From Methanoculleus marisnigri JR1 (GTDB lineage Archaea; Halobacteriota; Methanomicrobia; Methanomicrobiales; Methanoculleaceae): a DNA stretch of 64,000 bases. Position 1 is the stretch's first letter, and each line of letters starts with the position of its first letter. The stretch spans positions 2,412,695-2,476,694 of the forward strand of contig NC_009051.1 in assembly GCF_000015825.1 (NCBI RefSeq). The letters run 5' to 3'. The translations under genes and the position numbers were made by a program. Positions 4,238-35,158 of this stretch are shown one piece after another. The notes under the pieces were generated by a model that saw only the letters and a list, made by a program, of their open reading frames with translations, was not told the DNA's origin and made no database searches.

Positions 4238-5887
4238 ATGCCCGCCGGTGAGACAAACTGGAGGAGGAGCCTCCCGGCCGACCTCGCCGCCGGGGCTACC
4301 ACCGCCCTCGTCGGCATCCCGCAGGGGATGGGGTTCGCCCTCGTCGCCGGGGTCAACCCCGTCTACGGCCTCTATACCGCCGCATTCTCGACCGCGATCG
4401 GGGCGCTCCTCACCGGTTCCTCCTACCTCAAGGTGATGCTCTCGAACGTCCTCGCGGTCTCGATCTACTCCGTCCTCGCCCCCGTCCCCGAGGCCGACGT
4501 CCCGGCCACCCTCTTCGTGCTGACTATCCTCGTCGGGGCCTTCCAGCTCGGGTTCGGGCTCCTCCGGGCAGGCAGCCTGACCCGGTTCATCTCCACCGCC
4601 GTCCTCACCGGGTTCGTCACCGGCGCGGCGCTCCTCATCGTCCTCGGCCAGCTCGGGAACCTCACCGGCTACCGGCTCCCGCGGGAGGCGATCCAGGTCC
4701 TCGCCATCCCCGAGTTGCTCCTCCACGCAGGCGAGATCCAGCCGCAGGCGCTCTTCGTCGGCCTCCTCACCATCAGTCTCGCCCTCGCCCTTCAGCGGGT
4801 GCCGCGCCTCACTTCCTTCTCGCTCCTCCTCCCGGTCATCATCGCGGCCCTCCTCGTCCGGACCGCATTCCCGGGGGTCGCGCTCGTCGGCGACATCGCC
4901 GCCATCCCCGCCGGCCTCCCGGCCCCCGTTGTCCCCGACCTCGCCCTCGCGCCCGGCCTCCTCATCCCGGCGCTCGCCCTCGCCATCATCGGGCTCGTGA
5001 TGGCCGTCGGGGTCACCGAGACGACCCCCGAGCCGGACGGCAGCATCGCCGACGTGAACCGGGACTTCTCCGGGCAGGGGATCACGAACATCCTCACGAG
5101 TTTCCTCCAGTGCGCCCCGTCGGCCGGCTCCCTCTCGGCGACGGCGCTCAACGTCGCCGCCGGGGCAGAGACGCGGGCGGCAAACCTCATCTCGGGCATC
5201 CTCGTCGGGGCGGTCATCGTTGTCGCGGGCCCGCTCGCGGAACAGATCCCGCTCCCGGCTCTCGCCGGGATCCTGATCCTCATCGGGGCCGAGCTCATGA
5301 ACCAGCCCCACGTAATCGCCTGCATCTGGAGATATTCCCGCCCCGGGCGCTGGGCGATGCTCGCCACGTTCATCTCCACCCAGGTCCTCCCGCTCCAGTA
5401 CAGCATCTACATCGGCGTCCTCCTCTCGCTTGCCATTTACCTGGTCACCTCCACCCGGGAGGCGACCGTGGTCCGCCTCGCCCCGGTCGAGGGGGGGATG
5501 TTCCGGGAAGAACCGGCGCCCGAACGACTTTTGGACGACAGCATCACCGTCCTCTCGGTCTCCGGGAGCGTCTACTTCGCCACCCTCCGTGCCATCGAGC
5601 GGTCGCTCCCGTCCCCGGGAGGGGCAGAGAGCGCCGTCGTCATCCTTGCCCTCCCCCGAAGGGTCGAGGCAGGAACCGGGCTCTTTCGGATGCTGACACG
5701 CTACGCCCGGAAGGTCACGGCCGGTGGGAACCGGCTCATCCTCGCCGAAGTCAATCCCCGGCTCCTTGCAGGACTTGAAGAAGGGGGCGTCGTCGAGGCC
5801 ATCGGCCCCGGGAACATCTTCCCCGCGACACCGGTCATCGGCGAGTCGCTCCGGGCCGCTATCCGGGCGGCGAAGGCCGGAACGTGA
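4238..5887 (+). CDS. SulP family inorganic anion transporter
   Basis: A 549-residue membrane protein with the SulP layout: an N-terminal LPADLAAGATTALVGIPQGM motif in the first helix region, about ten to twelve hydrophobic helices, and a C-terminal cytoplasmic STAS domain (roughly residues 430-540). The family carries sulfate, bicarbonate or related anions by symport or exchange; the substrate cannot be read here. The frame stays open upstream to 4058, but that extension crosses the tRNA-like repeats and has no transporter similarity. The ATG at 4238 fits the TATA box at 4206. The next gene begins 48 bases downstream. Confidence 0.88.
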   Translation: MPAGETNWRRSLPADLAAGATTALVGIPQGMGFALVAGVNPVYGLYTAAFSTAIGALLTGSSYLKVMLSNVLAVSIYSVLAPVPEADVPATLFVLTILVGAFQLGFGLLRAGSLTRFISTAVLTGFVTGAALLIVLGQLGNLTGYRLPREAIQVLAIPELLLHAGEIQPQALFVGLLTISLALALQRVPRLTSFSLLLPVIIAALLVRTAFPGVALVGDIAAIPAGLPAPVVPDLALAPGLLIPALALAIIGLVMAVGVTETTPEPDGSIADVNRDFSGQGITNILTSFLQCAPSAGSLSATALNVAAGAETRAANLISGILVGAVIVVAGPLAEQIPLPALAGILILIGAELMNQPHVIACIWRYSRPGRWAMLATFISTQVLPLQYSIYIGVLLSLAIYLVTSTREATVVRLAPVEGGMFREEPAPERLLDDSITVLSVSGSVYFATLRAIERSLPSPGGAESAVVILALPRRVEAGTGLFRMLTRYARKVTAGGNRLILAEVNPRLLAGLEEGGVVEAIGPGNIFPATPVIGESLRAAIRAAKAGT

Positions 5888-17671: not shown

Positions 17672-18916
17672 ATGACACTGGTGCTGCTCGGATTCACCTT
17701 CTTCTCCGCCACGATGTGGGGCGGCGCGACCATCGGGGTTGCGTTCCCGTTCTGGCCCGATCTCGCTCTGGTCATCCTCCTCGGGAGCGCGATACTCGCG
17801 TTCTATGTCGCCGGCCTCGGGTACGTCGGCTTCAGGAGCGGCCTTTCCACCGTCCTCTCCGCGCGGTTCGCCTTCGGGGACGCGGGGAGCCGATGGCCCG
17901 ACATCCTCCTCGGGCTCACTCAGGTCGGATGGTATGCCTGGGGAACCGCGACGATCACGATCGTCCTTGCCCGCCTGCTGGACCTTGATCCGGGGTGGAA
18001 AGCGCCCCTGATGCTCGTCTTCGGGTTCGTCTTCTGCCTGACGGCGTATATCGGCTACCGCGGGATTGCAGCCCTCTCGTGGATCTCGGTTCCGGCGATG
18101 CTCCTCCTCATCGCCGCAAGCGCCTCGGTCGCCCTCAGGGACGCCGGGAGTGCGGCCGATCTCCTCCCGCCGGGCACCGTGGAGGCGCTTACGGTCGCCG
18201 AAGCGCTCACGATCGTCGTCGGCACCTTCGTCTCCGGCGGCACCCAGGTCGCGAACTGGACCCGCTTCTCCGGGTCGGCGCGCACCGCCGTCGGTTCTAC
18301 GTTCCTCGCCTTCTTCTTCGGGAACGGACTGATGGTCGCCGTCGGGGCCTTCGGTGCCGCCGTCTACGGCCTCTCCGACATCGTCGAGGTTCTGGCGGTT
18401 CAGGGTCTTCTTTCCGCCGGCATCCTGATGCTCTTCTTGAACATCTGGACGACCCAGGACAACACCATCTACAACTTCTCGGTTGCCGGCTGCCACTTCT
18501 TCAGGACAGAACGCCGAAGGCTGGTCACCTTCGCCGGCGCCGCTGCAGGGACAGCCCTCGCGCTCCTCGGGATGTACAACTGGTTGATCCCCTACATGAC
18601 CCTCCTCGGAACGTTCATCCCTCCGCTCGGCGGGGTGATCATGGCCGACTTCTTCGTCCGCCACCGGGGACGCTACCCCGCACCCGGGGAGGAGGCCGTC
18701 CCCCGGTTCAACCTGCAGGGGATCGCGGCGTATGCTGTCGGCTCTCTCGCCGCCCTCCTGGTTCCGGGCATCCCCCCGGTGAACGGCATCGTCGCCGCGT
18801 TCCTCGCCTACGCCTGTCTCGTCCGGCTCCCGGCTCACATAAACCGCTCGAACCGGTCGCGGGAGACCCGGCAGATGGGGCAGGTCTCGGGCGGCTCGTT
18901 CCGGGCGCAGAGGTAG
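17672..18916 (+). CDS. codB: Cytosine permease-like NCS1 transporter; N-terminus uncertain
   Basis: A 414-residue membrane protein with about twelve helices. [20 protein letters not shown] opens helix 1, and helix 6 carries a Gly-Gly-Thr-Gln-Val-Ala-Asn-Trp segment; together these resemble CodB-type cytosine/purine permeases. The in-frame sequence before ATG 17672 also looks conserved (DYPLSAVPDEARRGFWP), although no ATG, GTG or TTG start lies in frame upstream of it. An ATG with a nearby purine-rich site exists at 17605 in another frame, so a frameshift or unusual start is possible. The last 82 bases overlap the end of the convergent FTR gene, and the transporter's tail after about residue 390 is probably not conserved. 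Confidence 0.8.
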
Positions 18917-19691: not shown

Positions 19692-21371
19692 TCAGGAGGA
19701 AGCGGGCTTGAAGAGCAGGAACAGGCCGGCGCCGTTCCCGGAGATCGCAAGCGTCGCTCCCGAGAGCCCGAACTTCCGCCGGTAGAACCGGAGTTTCCGG
19801 GGAGACAGGAGGGCAGAGCCCTCGATCAGGAGCCCGGCGGCCGCCCCCTCCCGCCGGAGGGCGAGCCGGATCTCCCGGGCGCCGGCGGCCGCCATATCCT
19901 CGAGGACGCCGACGACCTCGTCGCAGAATCGTTCCCGGTCGACCAGCACCGGCGGGAAAGATCCTTCGGCGTCCACAACGAGGTCGGCGTCCACAACGAG
20001 GTCGGCGTCCACAACGAGGTCGGCGTCCTCCAGGAGCGGGAGGTAGGCGAGGCGAGAGACGAGCTCCACCCGGTACGCCACCGGGTCGTCCGCCGCCTCG
20101 ATGAACGCCTCGTCCGAGAACGGAGGTGTCGAGACGCCGGCGACGAGATCGCGGAGCATCGACGGGGCGTCCACGGTGGAGAGGCAGCCGGCGTCCCGGT
20201 AGCCGAAGACCGTGTTCATGAAGTCGGTGAGCAAGCGGTCGGCCCGGCGGAGGAGCGCTGCGTCGACGACGTGGTTCAGCCGATCGCCTGCAAAGTGAGT
20301 CTCGATCCGCTGGATCGCCTGAACGGCTTTGAGAACGAGCTGGACCTCAAGCCTCCTTCCGGCGTTGAACTCGTCGGCAAACCGTGAAAAATCTTCGAGA
20401 ACCCCGTCAATCCGGTCGGACTCCAGAAGTTCCTGGTAGCGCCGGGCCTCTTCGTCCTCACCGAGATCGTCGAGGCGGTAGGCGAGGGCATAAAGCCGCC
20501 CTGAAACCGCCGCAAAGACCCGGTTGGCCTCCTGGAGCAGGTCGACGGCGTGCTCCAGGGAGTCGTCGAGCCGGCTTCGGTCGAAGGGGCCTATGCTGGC
20601 GAGCTCCGCAACATCTCTCTCGAGCCGGTCGAGGAGTGCCGGCATCGCCGTAGCCAGGAGATCCCTGCCGTGGCCCGGACAGCAGAGGCTCACCGGTTCG
20701 TGAGCAAATATCCACCGGACCCTTCCTGCGGTCTCGAGCAGCGCCGGCTGATCCCAGCCGGCAAGCCCGGCGATCCCGGGGCTCGCGGAGAAGAGGAGGT
20801 CACCTATAAAGAGGTATTCACCAAGCCGGATGCAGATGCTGTCGGGCGTGTGCCCGGGGGTGTGGTAGACCGTAAGGATATCTCCGGAACGGAGCGGTAT
20901 CTGCTGGCGATGGAGGACGAAACCGTCGTCCGTCTCCAGGGTCTCGCGGTCGCGGGCGGCAAGAAGGGGCAGGGCGACCGGGAGCGGCTCGATCTCCCAC
21001 CCCATCAGTTCCGCAACCGTCCGGACGGCGTCGCCGGCCTCGAGAGACCGGGCGCCCGTCTCCTCTGCGGCAATGCTGAGATCCGGGAGGGCCCGGAACC
21101 GGGGGTTCCGGATGGCCTGGAAACAGTGGTCGGCGTGGCAGTGGGTGAGGAAGAGGAGAATCGGACGAGGTGCCTCCAAAAGAAGGTCGCCCACCAGTTC
21201 GAGGATCCGCTCCATCTGTCCGGCGTCGGCCCCGGTATCGATGAGCAGGATCTCGCCGGGTGTCCGGATAAGGTAGGCGTTCGAACAGGTGACGTCCGGT
21301 TTTCGGAGGAAGGGGTAGATCTCGGCACCGGCGGTGCCCGGCACCGGCTGCCATTGTTGGTCTTCGAGCAT
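19692..21371 (-). CDS. Metallo-beta-lactamase-fold protein with long C-terminal extension
   Basis: A 559-residue protein. Residues about 30-230 form a metallo-beta-lactamase domain: LLIDTGADAGQ, the metal motif THCHADHC, HTPGHTPDSICI, IGDLLF and CCPGHGRD. The C-terminal 300 residues form a helical region and then a small beta-rich end (LRREGAAAGLLIEGSA, ISGNGAGLFLLFK) that may be a degenerate GHKL-type ATPase fold, although the ATP motifs are missing. Between them is an exact threefold 18-bp repeat encoding DLVVDA units. The hydrolytic substrate is unknown. It is divergent from the exported protein at 21527. Confidence 0.72.
   Translation of the reverse strand: MLEDQQWQPVPGTAGAEIYPFLRKPDVTCSNAYLIRTPGEILLIDTGADAGQMERILELVGDLLLEAPRPILLFLTHCHADHCFQAIRNPRFRALPDLSIAAEETGARSLEAGDAVRTVAELMGWEIEPLPVALPLLAARDRETLETDDGFVLHRQQIPLRSGDILTVYHTPGHTPDSICIRLGEYLFIGDLLFSASPGIAGLAGWDQPALLETAGRVRWIFAHEPVSLCCPGHGRDLLATAMPALLDRLERDVAELASIGPFDRSRLDDSLEHAVDLLQEANRVFAAVSGRLYALAYRLDDLGEDEEARRYQELLESDRIDGVLEDFSRFADEFNAGRRLEVQLVLKAVQAIQRIETHFAGDRLNHVVDAALLRRADRLLTDFMNTVFGYRDAGCLSTVDAPSMLRDLVAGVSTPPFSDEAFIEAADDPVAYRVELVSRLAYLPLLEDADLVVDADLVVDADLVVDAEGSFPPVLVDRERFCDEVVGVLEDMAAAGAREIRLALRREGAAAGLLIEGSALLSPRKLRFYRRKFGLSGATLAISGNGAGLFLLFKPASS
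19968..20028. repeat. Exact 18-bp tandem repeat inside the metallo-beta-lactamase-fold gene
   Basis: GGCGTCCACAACGAGGTC occurs three times in perfect tandem (19968-19985, 19986-20003 and 20004-20021) and then as a 7-base partial copy. It keeps the reading frame, adding six residues per unit (DLVVDA). Identity at every base points to a recent expansion and likely copy-number variation. Confidence 0.9.
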
Positions 21372-26230: not shown

Positions 26231-26542
26231 TCAACAGAACCGGCAGCCGCACCCGCCGTCAGCGTCCCTGATCCGGCGGAGGGCTGCAGCCGCCCATCTT
26301 GTGACACCCGGATCGGCGTCCTCGAGCGCCTGCACGAGCGCCGGGACCGCTCCCGCATCCCCGATCATCCCGAGGGTGTAGGCCGCCCACATCCGGAGGC
26401 GGGGATCGGGATCGTCGAGCGCAGGAAGAAGGGGCGGAAGGGCGGCCGGACCGAGGGCGGCGAGGTTCGCCGCCGCTGCCATCCGGTCGGCGGTTCCACC
26501 GTCGCGGAGAGTCCGGATTAGCGCCCCGGCATCCACCGTCAC
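26231..26542 (-). CDS. Small HEAT-repeat protein with C-terminal cysteines
   Basis: A 103-residue protein with about three HEAT-like helix pairs: DRMAAAANLAALGPAALPPL, RLRMWAAYTLGMIGDAGAVP and GVTRWAAAALRRIRDA. It ends in GGCGCRFC, a possible metal or disulfide site. HEAT repeats are protein-binding scaffolds, in archaea often linked to regulation. The start overlaps the stop of the STAS gene by four bases (GTGA), so they are cotranscribed; the scaffold could bind the STAS protein or its partner. That role is inference. Confidence 0.78.
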   Translation of the reverse strand: MTVDAGALIRTLRDGGTADRMAAAANLAALGPAALPPLLPALDDPDPRLRMWAAYTLGMIGDAGAVPALVQALEDADPGVTRWAAAALRRIRDADGGCGCRFC

Positions 26543-26907
26543 GGAGACGTGCTCTCCTCTTCTCTCTTCTCTTCGTCGCCCGCGGCCAGGATCTCGTCGA
26601 GACCCACGTAGATCGGGAAGACCTCGTGGACGCCCGCCATCAGGAAGACCTTGTAGACATCGGGCTGGACCGCGCAGAGCGCCATCTCTCCGTCCACCCT
26701 TCTGAGATCACGAAACTTGCCGAGCAGCACCCTGAGACCGCTGCTGCTCATGTAGGCCGCCTTCTCCAGGTTCACAAGCACCCGTTTTCCGCCCCGCGCC
26801 AGCACTCCGGCAATTACCGTATCCAGGCGTTTTGCCGATTCCGCATCGATTCTGCCGTCAACGGATACGACTGCCGTATCGTCCCGCTCACTGACCGTTA
26901 CGTCCAT
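26539..26907 (-). CDS. STAS domain protein (anti-anti-sigma factor-like)
   Basis: A 122-residue single STAS domain. VTVSERDDTAVVSVDGRIDA at the N-terminus leads to VLVNLEKAAYMSSSGLRVLL (about residues 53-72), containing the Ser/Ser pair that RsbW-like kinases phosphorylate in bacterial anti-anti-sigma factors. It resembles the STAS protein at 33002 and could share its partners. The start ATG 26907 follows the shortest open frame giving a complete domain; the frame runs upstream to 26967. It is the first gene of a pair with the HEAT protein. Confidence 0.85.
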   Translation of the reverse strand: MDVTVSERDDTAVVSVDGRIDAESAKRLDTVIAGVLARGGKRVLVNLEKAAYMSSSGLRVLLGKFRDLRRVDGEMALCAVQPDVYKVFLMAGVHEVFPIYVGLDEILAAGDEEKREEESTSP

Positions 26908-27010: not shown

Positions 27011-28198
27011 TCAGTGGGTCTGCCGGTAGTAGTCCCAGGCGTCGACTGCGGTGCCGTTTGCAAAGATACAGACACCGTACTCGCTGCCGTCGGGGTTCTT
27101 CCGGATCTCGTAGGTGTGGCCCTGCTCCTTACACCAGACCGCGGCCGGGTTCGCGAGGCCGACGGTTTCACTGCACCGGGCGCAGGCCCACGGGATGTCA
27201 ACGATCTCGATAGGGGTTCCCCACTGCTGGATCGTCGCGGTATCCCGGGCTATCTCCCCGACGAAGGTAAGGCGCATTCCGTCGACGCGGTAGGTCTCGT
27301 CGAGATCGAGCGGAAGATAACGTTCGCCGTCGTCGGCGACGATCCCGTAGAACCCGCCCTCGAGGTCGACGAACGTGACCGTCCCGGTCTTTGCGACGTA
27401 GGTCGCGTTCCCTGCCGTATCGATGGCGATGACCTCGACCGGGGTGCCCCACTGCTGGATGGTCATGGTGTTCTCCTTGATCCGGGCAACGAACGTCACG
27501 TTCGCCCCGTCCGTCTGCCAGGCTTCGTCGAGACCGAGCGGGAGGTAGTGCCTGCCGTCGTCGGCGACGAGGCCGTAGAACCCACCCTCGAGATCGATGT
27601 AGGTGACCGTGGCGTTCCCGGAGACGAGCAGGACGCCTTCAACCAGTTCGATCGACCGGATCTCCACAGGAGTTCCCCACATCCCAATCCCCGCGACGTC
27701 ATCCTGCACGTCGGCGCTGAACTGCACTAAAAGACCGTCCTGCCGGTACTCCGCCGGGAGGTTTCCGGGCAGGAATTTCCTGCCGTCGTCGGTGACGAGG
27801 CCGTAGAACCCGCCCTCGAGGTCGATGTAGGTGACCGTAGCGTTCGCCGCGACCGTCCGGCGGGTGTCGCCCGCCGCGATCTCGACTATCTCGACCGGCG
27901 TCCCCCACTGCTGGATGGTTGCCGTCTCGTTCATGATATTGACGGCGAACGCGACACGGAGGCCGTCCTGCCGGCATTCAGTCGGGAGGTCGGCGGGGAG
28001 GTAACGTTCGCCGTCATCGGCGACGATCCCGTAGAACCCACCTTCAAGATCGACGAACGTGATCGTGCCGTTCCCGGAGATGCGCTCGGCCGGCTCGTCC
28101 TCTCCCCCGGCAGCCATGCACCCGCATGCAACGACAGCCCCGAAGAGAACGAGGAAAATAACCAGATAGCTCGGATAGGATCCCGTCATAGGCTTCAA
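27011..28198 (-). CDS. Lipoprotein with four tandem repeats and a DUF333-like C-terminus
   Basis: A 395-residue exported protein. The N-terminal hydrophobic segment ends VVACGC (about residues 22-27), a possible lipobox. Four repeats of roughly 75 residues follow, each with T(I/V)T(F/Y)(V/I)DLEGGFYG, then V(A/T)DDGR or DDGER, YLP or FLP, a middle DG motif and a final WGTP(V/I)EI. The C-terminal 60 residues resemble DUF333: GLANPAAVWCKEQGHTYEI, then GSEYGVCIFANG. The repeats look like OB or beta-sandwich domains. The binding target is not known. It stands alone between a STAS/HEAT pair and the DUF2207 gene. Confidence 0.72.
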   Translation of the reverse strand: MKPMTGSYPSYLVIFLVLFGAVVACGCMAAGGEDEPAERISGNGTITFVDLEGGFYGIVADDGERYLPADLPTECRQDGLRVAFAVNIMNETATIQQWGTPVEIVEIAAGDTRRTVAANATVTYIDLEGGFYGLVTDDGRKFLPGNLPAEYRQDGLLVQFSADVQDDVAGIGMWGTPVEIRSIELVEGVLLVSGNATVTYIDLEGGFYGLVADDGRHYLPLGLDEAWQTDGANVTFVARIKENTMTIQQWGTPVEVIAIDTAGNATYVAKTGTVTFVDLEGGFYGIVADDGERYLPLDLDETYRVDGMRLTFVGEIARDTATIQQWGTPIEIVDIPWACARCSETVGLANPAAVWCKEQGHTYEIRKNPDGSEYGVCIFANGTAVDAWDYYRQTH

Positions 28199-30843: not shown

Positions 30844-32520
30844 CTACTCCGCAACCTCTTCCCCGGAACTCACCATCGCCACCACGTTGCCGTCCGCGTC
30901 CCGCAGAAGGGCGTTGTGCCAGAGGATCGGCCGCTCCCGCCCGTCCCGCGTGACGACCGGACTCTCCTCGAACGGCGGAGGTTCGACGCCGCAGGCCACG
31001 AGACGGTTGAAGTTCTGCGCGAGCCGGTCGCGCAGCCGCTCGGGAACGACCGTCGCAAACCAGTTCTTTCCCGCAAGATCTCCCTCGGCGTATCCCAGGG
31101 TTTCGCTCGCCTTCCGGTTGACGAGGTCGATGGTGCCGTCCGCCCCGATCACCGCGATCATCACGCCTGCCGCCTCCAGGTATCCCTGCGCCCGGTCGCG
31201 CTCGGCGATCAGGAGAATCTCCGCGGCGGCGCGATCGGTGACGTCCTCGGCGATCCCGAGCATGTATTTCAGCATGCCCCTTGAACTGAAGATCGGGATC
31301 TTCTTCATGGAGAGCGTCCGCCCGCCCTCTGTCCGGATCTCCTTCTCAAGGGCGGCCGCCCGCTCCACGAGTTCCCGGTCGCCGTCGGCAAAGAATGTCG
31401 CCATCTCCGGCGGGAAGATCTCCGCGGCCCGTTTTCCCGCCATCTCCTCCTGTGTCATCCCGAGGAACGTCTCGGCGGCCTTATTCGAGAAGACAAACGT
31501 GTTTTCTTCCACTTCCCGGACAAAGACCATGCTCGGGATGTTGTTGACCACCGAGTAGAGGAACGACTTCCACTGGGCTACCCTTTTTGCGGCACGCGTC
31601 CGCTCGGTGACGTCGCGGCAGACCATCCGGTAACCGGTGAAGTCGCCGATCACGTCGTAAACCGGCGTCCCGCTCACCTCGAGAACGACGGGGCTTCCGT
31701 CCCGGTGGAGCATCGTCCATTCGAAGAGGACTCGCGGTCTCGGCTCGGCTAAAAGTGCGGAAAACTGTTCCCTGACGGGTTCCGCCTTCTCCGGGGCCAT
31801 GAAGTCGCAGGGGGTCTTTCGGAGCATCTCTTCGGGCGCGTAGCCGAGGATCTCCCGGCTTTTGGGGCTGACGTAGGTGAACGTGCAGGCTTCGTCGACG
31901 TTCAGGATCAGGTCGCTGATGTTCTCGACGAGGCTTCTAAAGAGGAGCTCGCTCTCGCGCAGAGCCTCTTCCGCCCGCCGTCCCTCGGTGATCTCCTCGA
32001 GGATGATGGTGACGCCCGGCGCCCCGTCGTTGAAGACAGTGGGGAGAAACTTGATCCTGAAGAAGAGTTCCTCGTCCTGCCGCAGAAACCGGAGTTCTTC
32101 GGTGACCTCGCGGCCGTTCAGGGCGTCGGTGATCCGGCTCCGTATCAGCGGGTGGTCGAACGCGGCGAGCGGCGACGCCTCGATGGAGTTCCCGATGATA
32201 TCGTCTCGCTCCCTCCCCGCAAACGAACAGACGGCGTCGTTTGCCTGGACGATCCGACGATCCCGGTCGAGCACCAGCACGAGATCCGACGAGAAGTTGA
32301 GCATGGCGGCGATGGGAACCCTCTGCGAGAGGTAGAAGACTTTGGCCTTCCCGTAGGTCTCCATCTCCACCTGGCCCGATACCAGGAGGACGTCGAGGTA
32401 CCGGGAGACGGTGTTCCGGTTGATCCCGACGGCTGCGGCAAGATCGGAGACCGACATGCCGCGCGGATGCTCTTTCAGGGCTCGCAGCAGGAGAGAGAGT
32501 GCGTCGGTAGTGGGATCCAT
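30844..32520 (-). CDS. HTH-PAS regulator with multiple PAS domains
   Basis: A 558-residue protein. The N-terminus is a helix-turn-helix (MSVSDLAAAVGINRNTVSRY, about residues 22-41), followed by four PAS-like domains starting near residues 77, 190, 315 and 440. Motifs include DDIIGNSIEASPL, EILGYAPEEMLRKTP and ASETLGYAEGDLAGKNWF. No histidine-kinase, GGDEF or other output domain follows. Thus DNA binding itself may be the output and the PAS domains the sensors. Start ATG 32520 is backed by a TATA box at 32546-32552 (minus); TTG 32526 is a poorer candidate. A similar protein lies at 40451. Confidence 0.82.
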   Translation of the reverse strand: MDPTTDALSLLLRALKEHPRGMSVSDLAAAVGINRNTVSRYLDVLLVSGQVEMETYGKAKVFYLSQRVPIAAMLNFSSDLVLVLDRDRRIVQANDAVCSFAGRERDDIIGNSIEASPLAAFDHPLIRSRITDALNGREVTEELRFLRQDEELFFRIKFLPTVFNDGAPGVTIILEEITEGRRAEEALRESELLFRSLVENISDLILNVDEACTFTYVSPKSREILGYAPEEMLRKTPCDFMAPEKAEPVREQFSALLAEPRPRVLFEWTMLHRDGSPVVLEVSGTPVYDVIGDFTGYRMVCRDVTERTRAAKRVAQWKSFLYSVVNNIPSMVFVREVEENTFVFSNKAAETFLGMTQEEMAGKRAAEIFPPEMATFFADGDRELVERAAALEKEIRTEGGRTLSMKKIPIFSSRGMLKYMLGIAEDVTDRAAAEILLIAERDRAQGYLEAAGVMIAVIGADGTIDLVNRKASETLGYAEGDLAGKNWFATVVPERLRDRLAQNFNRLVACGVEPPPFEESPVVTRDGRERPILWHNALLRDADGNVVAMVSSGEEVAE

Positions 32521-32526
32521 GTGCAA

Positions 32527-33001: not shown

Positions 33002-33358
33002 ATGAGCGGGCACTTCGAGATCACCGAGGAAAAGGCCGGCACCGTCGATATCGTCACGATGAAAGGGCGGCTGGACGCCGGCTCTTCGGAGACGGCACAG
33101 GAGCGGATCAACAGGGTGCTCGACGCCGGAGGGAGGAACCTCCTCGTCAACCTCTGCGACCTCGACTATATCAGCAGCTCCGGGCTCCGGGTGCTGCTTG
33201 CCACGCTGAAGCGGCTGAAGACCAACGGCGGGGCGCTCCGGATTGCCTGCGCACAGCCGCAGATCCTCGAGGTCTTCACCATGGCGGGGTTCCACCGGAT
33301 CTTTTCGCTCTCTCCCGACGAGGCAACTGCGCTTGCCGGTTTTCCGGCGGGATCCTGA
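33002..33358 (+). CDS. STAS anti-anti-sigma factor-like protein (RsbV-type)
   Basis: A 118-residue STAS domain. GTVDIVTMKGRLDAGSSETA opens it, and LLVNLCDLDYISSSGLRVLL (about residues 47-66) contains the phosphorylatable Ser cluster that in Bacillus RsbV is the target of the RsbW kinase. It precedes a PP2C-type phosphatase and an RsbW-like kinase on the same strand, so it is very probably the regulated partner of both. Classical sigma factors do not exist in archaea, so the released partner must act on something else. A weak TATA-like block (near 32970) suits a leaderless start. Confidence 0.88.
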   Translation: MSGHFEITEEKAGTVDIVTMKGRLDAGSSETAQERINRVLDAGGRNLLVNLCDLDYISSSGLRVLLATLKRLKTNGGALRIACAQPQILEVFTMAGFHRIFSLSPDEATALAGFPAGS

Positions 33359-33383
33359 TCGGCAACACGGGTGGTAGACCGGC

Positions 33384-34751
33384 ATGGCGTTCTCCGGCTT
33401 CGGCGATATGTTCTTCGTGCTCCTGCAGATGATCTGCGTCATCGTAGTGGTCGCCTACCTGATCACGCGGACGAAATCGTTTACGCAGGTGCTCGACGGC
33501 ATATTCACCTGGAAAGGCCAGGCGATACTCATCCTCCTCTTCGGGGCGCTCTCCATCTACGGCACCGAGAGCGGCATCACCATCCTCGGCGCCACGGCAA
33601 ACGTCCGCGACCTCGGGCCGATGGTCGGCGGGCTCGCCTGCGGCCCGGTGGTGGGGCTCGGCGCCGGGCTGATCGGCGCGGCGTATCGCTTCTCTCTCGC
33701 GGGGTTCACCGCCGTCCCGTGCGCGACCGCGACCGTCCTCGCGGGGCTCTTCGGGGGGCTGATCTTCCTCTTTGCCGGTCGTAAATTCATCGGGATGCAC
33801 GGCGCAGTCCTCTTCGCCGTCGGGATGGAGGCGTTCCACATGGGGCTCACCCTTCTCCTCTGTCGGCCGTTCGACCAGGCGCTCGAGGTCGTCGAGGGGG
33901 TGGCCGTTCCGATGATCATCGCCAATGCCACCGGGGTCTTCATCTTCGCGTTCATCATCGGGAATCTGATCGCCGAGCGGCAGACGAAGGATGAGCGCGA
34001 CTCCTTCCTCTCGGAACTCGAGCGTAAAAAGGCCGAACTGAAGATCGCGCACGATATCCAGATGAGTTTCCTCCCCGAACGGCTGCCGGAAGTTCCGGGC
34101 TTCGAACTCGCCGCCCTCTCGCTCCCGGCAAAGGAGGTCGGCGGGGACTTCTACGACGCGATCCCCCTTCCCGGCGGCCGGACAGCCTTTGTCATAGCCG
34201 ACGTCTCGGGAAAAGGCGTCCCGGCGGCGCTCTTTATGGCGCTCTCGCGGACGGTGCTGCGGGCGAACTCGCTGATCCCGCGGAGTGCCCGCGACGCCGT
34301 CACCGAGGCCAATATGCTGATAGCCGAGGACGCGAAGTCCGGGATGTTCGTCACCCTCTTCTACGCGGTCGCCGACCCGGGCAAGAAGACACTCACCTAC
34401 GTCAACGCGGGGCACAACCCGCCGCTCCTCTTCCGGCCGGGCAGCGGCCGGCCCACAGGGCTGAAAGGAACCGGGATCATCCTCGGGGTCATGCCGGAGG
34501 CCGAGTACGGCGAGGAGACGATCCATCTTGTGAGCGGCGACCTCGTCCTCCTCTACACCGACGGCGTCACCGAGGCGATCAACCCCGATGAAGAGCAGTT
34601 CGGGGAGGAGCGGCTGATAGAGACCGTCTCGGCCTCTCTTGACCTGCCGCCGGCCGAGATCGTCGAGAGAGTCCGCGACGCGGTCATGGCGTTCTCGGGC
34701 GACGAGCCGCAGTTCGATGACCTGACCCTCATGATTCTCCGGGTGGTCTGA
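33384..34751 (+). CDS. Membrane sensor with 5TM and SpoIIE-like phosphatase (RsbU-type)
   Basis: A 455-residue protein. The first 200 residues contain about six helices with the 5TMR-LYT-like pattern NVRDLGPMVGGLACGPVVGL and AAYRFSLAGFTAVPC; after a linker helix comes a PP2C/SpoIIE phosphatase domain (about residues 215-455). Metal and core motifs are VGGDFYDAI, FVIADVSGKGVPAALFM, VNAGHNPPLL, YTDGVTEA and FDDLTLMILRVV. It would dephosphorylate the STAS protein upstream in response to a membrane or ligand signal. Its stop codon overlaps the start of the kinase gene by one base. Confidence 0.88.
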   Translation: MAFSGFGDMFFVLLQMICVIVVVAYLITRTKSFTQVLDGIFTWKGQAILILLFGALSIYGTESGITILGATANVRDLGPMVGGLACGPVVGLGAGLIGAAYRFSLAGFTAVPCATATVLAGLFGGLIFLFAGRKFIGMHGAVLFAVGMEAFHMGLTLLLCRPFDQALEVVEGVAVPMIIANATGVFIFAFIIGNLIAERQTKDERDSFLSELERKKAELKIAHDIQMSFLPERLPEVPGFELAALSLPAKEVGGDFYDAIPLPGGRTAFVIADVSGKGVPAALFMALSRTVLRANSLIPRSARDAVTEANMLIAEDAKSGMFVTLFYAVADPGKKTLTYVNAGHNPPLLFRPGSGRPTGLKGTGIILGVMPEAEYGEETIHLVSGDLVLLYTDGVTEAINPDEEQFGEERLIETVSASLDLPPAEIVERVRDAVMAFSGDEPQFDDLTLMILRVV

Positions 34752-35158
34752 TGGCGGAACTCACCGTGCGGGCGGATCTATCGGCGCTCGAAGCGATTGC
34801 GGACTTTCTCGCGGAGACACTCGCCGGGTGCGGCGACGAACTCGTCTTTGCAATCCAGCTCGCCGTCGACGAAGCCTGCAGTAACATCATCCTCTACGGG
34901 TATGGCGGGGAGCCGGGATCGATCTCGATCGCCTGCACCGCAGACGAAGACGCCGTCCACGTGACGATCACCGACGACGGGGTTGCATTCGATCCGCTCA
35001 CCGCCCCGCCGCCGCCCCTCGATGTCCCCGTGGAAGAGCGGCCGATCGGGGGGCTCGGTGTTCACTTCATCCGGACGGTGACGGACAGCGTAACCTACGC
35101 CCGCGAAGGTGAGAAGAACATTCTCTCGATGGAGAAGAAGCGACCGGCGTCAGGATGA
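34751..35158 (+). CDS. Anti-sigma-factor-type Ser/Thr kinase (RsbW-like)
   Basis: A 135-residue GHKL-type ATPase. The N box is AVDEACSNIILYGYG (about residues 37-51), the G1 box is ITDDGVAFDPL (about 76-86) and the G2 region is IGGLGVHFIRTVTDSVTY (about 98-115). This is the domain of bacterial RsbW and SpoIIAB, which bind a client and phosphorylate the STAS partner. It starts at the ATG overlapping the phosphatase stop codon, so translation is coupled. Its client in an archaeon is unknown; candidates could be transcription factors or a HTH-PAS protein. Confidence 0.88.
   Translation: MAELTVRADLSALEAIADFLAETLAGCGDELVFAIQLAVDEACSNIILYGYGGEPGSISIACTADEDAVHVTITDDGVAFDPLTAPPPPLDVPVEERPIGGLGVHFIRTVTDSVTYAREGEKNILSMEKKRPASG

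Follow-up and report, generated by a model that had tools for sequence, protein, structure and literature searches.

A STAS–phosphatase–kinase cassette in Methanoculleus marisnigri and its linkage to an MBL-fold protein

The cassette and its active sites

Three adjacent genes of Methanoculleus marisnigri JR1, all on the forward strand, encode a complete STAS–phosphatase–kinase cassette. The window, i.e., the whole stretch of DNA analyzed here and the reference for all coordinates, comprises 64,000 nucleotides. First in line is an RsbV/SpoIIAA-like STAS protein of 118 aa (33002-33358, +; PF01740, E=4e-21), followed after 25 bp by a membrane SpoIIE/RsbU-type PP2C phosphatase of 455 aa (33384-34751, +; PF07228, E=3e-54; PF07694, E=1e-40), in which residues 32-193 make up a LytS/BtsS-type 5TM sensor (5TM-5TMR_LYT). 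The third gene encodes an RsbW/SpoIIAB-like GHKL serine kinase of 135 aa (34751-35158, +; HATPase_c_2, PF13581, E=1e-29) and shares a single base with the phosphatase gene in a TGA/ATG overlap. The STAS, SpoIIE, 5TM-5TMR_LYT, and HATPase_c_2 matches all lie far over the Pfam cut-offs.

The key residues of all three proteins are intact. In the STAS protein, the predicted phospho-acceptor Ser59 (33176-33178, +; motif YISSSG) aligns with the phosphorylated Ser58 of SpoIIAA, its nearest solved relative, and all 152 related STAS domains compared have a Ser at this position. The kinase, whose best solved relatives are SpoIIAB and RsbW, retains Glu41 and Asn45 of the N-box and Asp75 of the G1 box (invariant in 96/96 homologues), and the phosphatase retains D255, D258, D273, D393, D445, and D446, with the metal-binding Asp residues invariant in 86/86 homologues. 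The first-pass annotation had proposed this very set from the letters alone, namely a STAS protein with the Ser cluster, an RsbU/SpoIIE-like phosphatase with a membrane sensor, and a kinase with intact N and G1 boxes whose gene overlaps its neighbor by one base, and the domain matches and alignments bear it out. The intact active sites make the chemistry of a partner switch highly likely, in which the kinase would phosphorylate the STAS protein and the phosphatase would reverse this.

At the level of narrower family models, the proteins miss the NCBIfam equivalog cut-offs (54.6 against 114.75 for spore_II_AA, 48 against 145 for RsbW, and 38.9 against 135 for spIIAB); the STAS protein passes the superfamily model TIGR00377. 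Within the genome searched, a single contig of 2,478,101 bp, there is no second SpoIIE gene, and no protein other than the kinase is a free-standing HATPase_c_2; the other matches to that domain are embedded in long frames, of which those that were read are histidine kinases. The genome has two free STAS proteins; a further, weak match (about 5534-5824, +) lies in a 611-aa frame that is probably a SulP-type transporter.

Prior work and the missing sigma factor

The three genes were described in 2009 as Memar_2467 (anti-anti-sigma), Memar_2468 (serine phosphatase), and Memar_2469 (anti-sigma), together with Mlab_1450-1452 (Anderson et al. 2009, PMC2686161). The same paper noted that archaea are without sigma factors, saw no way to read the target from the genome, and gave no client; the genome paper of M. 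marisnigri JR1 repeats this point. Both the cassette and the puzzle of its missing sigma factor have thus been known since 2009, and the core of the first-pass annotation with them. Added here are a linked MBL-fold protein and a second STAS adaptor, from which a possible solution of the puzzle emerges, as well as occurrences outside the order.

A profile search of the whole genome yielded no Sigma70_r2 match over the cut-off (best E=0.35), and so the sigma client that defines a strict anti-sigma/anti-anti-sigma system was not found with this model. The output must therefore differ from that of the bacterial systems, as had been anticipated from the sequence.

The sensor domain of the phosphatase

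The sensor shares its 5TM-5TMR_LYT fold with Escherichia coli BtsS, a LytS-type pyruvate receptor (PMC10653868), but is coupled to a phosphatase instead of a histidine kinase. Three of the four pyruvate-site residues of BtsS are kept: Arg75, Arg102, and Cys113 of the phosphatase correspond to Arg72, Arg99, and Cys110, while Ala116 replaces Ser113. The same holds more widely, with equivalents of Arg72, Arg99, and Cys110 in 52 of 53 archaeal phosphatases and an Ala at the Ser113 position in 45 of them. In BtsS, the S113A exchange abolished the response (PMC10653868). Since three of the four residues are kept, a small carboxylate is the likely ligand, although it need not be pyruvate; it is also possible that the family keeps these residues for structural reasons.

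Conservation and spread

Of 199 Methanomicrobiales genomes, 139 have SpoIIE domains and 121 have the kinase. The STAS and kinase genes lie beside the phosphatase gene in 33 of the 36 fetched loci with a phosphatase frame of 450-485 residues, and the genes thus stay adjacent in relatives, a point on which the first-pass reading had been made to depend. At some loci the phosphatase or the STAS gene is present twice. Anderson et al. (2009, PMC2686161) had considered the proteins to be confined to Methanomicrobiales, a restriction that is superseded by occurrences in other families of the Halobacteriota, including a Methanothrix harundinacea record, where the genes are likewise adjacent.

An MBL-fold protein linked to the cassette

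The partner most strongly linked to the cassette, overlooked in the first-pass annotation and found by comparing the neighborhoods of relatives, is an MBL-fold protein of 559 aa (19692-21371, -; PF00753, E=9e-16), which we propose as the client. It consists of a metallo-hydrolase domain (about residues 1-255) followed by a C-terminal domain that weakly resembles a degenerate histidine kinase. The metal ligands H77, H79, D81, H82, H174, D191, and H234 (HxHxDH, His, Asp, His) are all invariant among 33 homologues. Its structure model is confident (pLDDT 88.9), and a Foldseek search with it returned GloB and metallo-beta-lactamases, matching the MBL part alone. The C-terminal half has no Pfam match; against histidine kinases it gave weak hhalign probabilities of 53-60% (E about 1e-4) with a profile of 11 own-genome sequences that is imperfect because at least one of them is in the wrong frame, and against the kinase of the cassette it gave about 3-4%.

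The kinase and the MBL-fold protein tend to occur together: of the 199 Methanomicrobiales genomes, 95 have both, 75 neither, 26 the kinase only, and 3 the MBL-fold protein only (Fisher p=3e-28, without correction for relatedness). The two genes are at most 6 kb apart in 46 genomes, several genera have STAS-MBL operons, and in Methanolinea the MBL-fold protein is fused to a STAS domain at its C-terminal side.

Full-length homologues were also seen at eight loci in bacterial metagenome-assembled genomes (hosts being Omnitrophota, Geobacter, Desulfoluna, Smithella, Syntrophus, Lentisphaerae, and Euphemobacter), where contamination is possible. Mostly, no STAS or kinase gene was detected near them, the Omnitrophota homologue alone having a STAS neighbor. 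Given these mostly solitary bacterial proteins and the 26 kinase-only genomes, the MBL-fold protein is not needed for every such switch. Near the MBL gene in M. marisnigri lies a gene for a 414-aa membrane protein (17672-18916, +) that looks by sequence appearance like an NCS1 nucleobase permease; it is kept in the Methanoculleus genome G068, and pieces of just 28-34 aa were found in the fetched stretches of G028 and G058.

STAS2 and the other neighbors

The second free STAS protein, STAS2 (26539-26907, -; 122 aa; PF01740, E=1e-18), is also RsbV-like and carries the motif YMSSSG. Its gene overlaps that of a HEAT-repeat protein (26231-26542, -), and the pair is conserved together through Methanoculleus. 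HTH-PAS protein 1 (30844-32526, -) is encoded divergently from the cassette, and a second HTH-PAS gene lies close by. The first-pass annotation had seen all of these correctly and had counted them as candidate members of the network.

Of these, STAS2 does belong to it. In five Methanoculleus genomes without STAS2 and the cassette (G028, G058, G068, G112, and G151), the HEAT protein is kept at 76-84% identity and HTH-PAS1 at 88-96%, so neither is a required member; we reject both as obligate parts of the module. HTH-PAS2 is likewise seen in at least two of these genomes (G112 and G068), the position of its gene in G028 and G058 falling outside the fetched stretch, where weak matches are to HTH-PAS1. 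In G004 and G010, the HEAT gene was also not found in the fetched stretch. STAS2 itself is accessory, because G092 has lost it yet keeps the cassette and the MBL-fold protein, along with the HEAT protein. A further neighbor (27011-28198, -) has four similar internal repeats (GNGTITFVDLEGGFYG...) plus a DUF333 domain.

Natural deletions in Methanoculleus

In G028, G058, G068, and G112, the cassette, STAS2, and the MBL gene are gone from three separate sites. Between these sites the genomes keep the genes for the HEAT protein, the DUF333-repeat protein, DUF2207, LemA, and HTH-PAS1, a nucleoside deoxyribosyltransferase-like gene, a TSR3-like gene, and others. Remnants of 18-46 aa of STAS2, the kinase, or the MBL-fold protein in some of them point to decay, and whole-genome searches show that the lost genes have not moved elsewhere. 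For G112, whose contig starts before the MBL site, the loss of the MBL gene rests on such a whole-genome search.

A single ancestral loss does not explain this pattern, as one clade of the four genomes is rejected (p-AU 8e-6). On the tree of kept genes, presence of the cassette changes at least seven times, and joint loss of the cassette, STAS2, and the MBL gene took place about five to seven independent times. The MBL gene goes with the cassette in 5 of 5 supported independent pairs, a number with which a sign test cannot reach p<0.05, and the HEAT gene in 1 of 4. Repeated joint loss thus gives good support for placing the MBL-fold protein and STAS2 in the same pathway as the cassette.

Other partners in relatives

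Elsewhere the module has different neighbors. Outside the order, and in a few families within it, a xanthine/uracil permease with a GHKL-like tail adjoins the cassette; the tail matches HATPase_c_2 at E=0.01 and the kinase of the cassette with an hhalign probability of 96%. Such permeases stand beside the cassette or its phosphatase. At one locus the permease gene follows the phosphatase gene in a stretch that showed neither a kinase nor a STAS gene. The M. marisnigri genome has no GHKL-tailed permease and just a distant permease of 462 aa. At another locus, a MATE transporter carries a HATPase_c_2 domain. Fusions also involve the kinase: at five loci of one genus it forms the C-terminal domain of an 800-1000-aa protein, the N-terminal part of which matches Cthe_2159 in one case, where the kinase is thus fused to a Cthe_2159-type protein, and has no such match in another.

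A family of about 435 aa, seen at 11 loci, combines a STAS domain with a domain of 310 aa and, in several families, adjoins the kinase or a HAMP-SpoIIE phosphatase. The 310-aa domain has no Pfam match and a predicted acetolactate decarboxylase fold (Foldseek E=2e-10), with an HxH motif that is not invariant; a scan of viral_contigs for the family found nothing. Since the motif varies and M. marisnigri is without the domain, it cannot be the client here, and it was ruled out as such. The idea that STAS2 is a remnant of this protein finds no support in the STAS tree.

Proposed mechanism and alternatives

In our preferred reading, the module is a partner switch that works without a sigma factor and, in M. 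marisnigri, most likely acts on the MBL-fold protein (probability roughly 0.55). The kinase would phosphorylate Ser59 of the cassette's STAS protein and probably also the matching Ser of STAS2. Binding of a small, possibly pyruvate-like carboxylate to the 5TM sensor would lead the membrane phosphatase to remove the phosphate, and the unphosphorylated STAS protein would then bind its partner. A STAS adaptor would thereby control the metallo-hydrolase via its kinase-like C-terminal domain, and in relatives the same module may be wired to other outputs, such as the nucleobase permease with its GHKL-like tail. That the cassette goes together with a second adaptor and an enzyme predicted to depend on metal suggests that the switch controls an enzyme, not transcription. 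More tentatively, and at rather less than even odds, archaeal partner switching might have one core (STAS protein, kinase, and 5TM phosphatase) that directly controls exchangeable enzyme or transporter clients (the MBL-fold protein in Methanoculleus, the permease in Methanothrix and others), with STAS docking onto a degenerate kinase-like domain.

That the MBL-fold protein is the switched client is our best single guess, held slightly above an even chance. The main rival places the same protein at the input, where the hydrolase would make or remove the signal, or sense metal or redox state, and so feed a switch with another protein as its true client. The direction is not fixed by joint loss, a C-terminal STAS fusion to the MBL resembles RsbR-type sensor-STAS proteins, and the loci with two phosphatases or two STAS genes fit this arrangement too; RsbQ, which acts upstream of RsbP, is a precedent for pairing a hydrolase with a phosphatase. 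The phosphatase of M. marisnigri, however, already has its own sensor domain, the MBL pairs with STAS, i.e., the part that meets the client, rather than with the phosphatase domain, and the solitary bacterial homologues suggest a stand-alone function. An input role is unlikely, though to be taken seriously.

Control of transcription, with the kinase sequestering TFB, an HTH-PAS regulator, or another archaeal transcription factor, appears improbable. Most studied RsbW-type kinases do hold a sigma factor, and two HTH-PAS genes are close, HTH-PAS1 being divergent from the cassette in Methanoculleus; yet HTH-PAS1 persists intact in genomes that lost the module, HTH-PAS2 does so in at least two, and in several lineages outside Methanoculleus the proteins encoded beside the module or fused to it look like enzymes or are transporters. 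We see very little chance that STAS2 has the HEAT protein as its client and that the pair forms the output arm: their overlapping, jointly conserved genes invite the idea, but the HEAT gene outlives STAS2 both in the five genomes without the cassette and in G092, which retains cassette and MBL. Finally, several losses in Methanoculleus make the cassette dispensable, as a non-functional relic of horizontal transfer would be, but none of its catalytic residues varies among the 86-152 homologues compared from different families, and intact copies are widespread, which leaves that explanation scarcely credible.

Comparison with known systems and significance

The cassette resembles the Bacillus SpoIIAA/SpoIIAB/SpoIIE and RsbV/RsbW/RsbU switches in its combination of a STAS protein, a GHKL kinase, and a PP2C phosphatase, its adjacent genes, and its active-site residues, and differs from them in the absence of a detected sigma client, the sub-equivalog scores, the LytS-type membrane sensor, and the link to the MBL-fold protein. 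Compared with the RsbR/RsbS/RsbT stressosome, the genome has only two free STAS proteins and one free kinase. A closer parallel for the proposed output is the SiaA/SiaB/SiaC/SiaD system of Pseudomonas aeruginosa, where a phosphorylation-controlled adaptor acts on an enzyme instead of a sigma factor: SiaC binds and activates the cyclase SiaD (PMC8457831, PMC7647112). SiaD is a diguanylate cyclase, whereas the enzyme in M. marisnigri is a predicted metallo-hydrolase.

Since 2009 it has been asked what role an anti-sigma system could play in cells that have no sigma factors. With a linked MBL partner, a second adaptor, and a candidate class of ligand, the puzzle is reduced to simple binding and kinase assays. 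If the proposed reading is true, partner switching would be a general way of controlling proteins and not a sigma-factor device.
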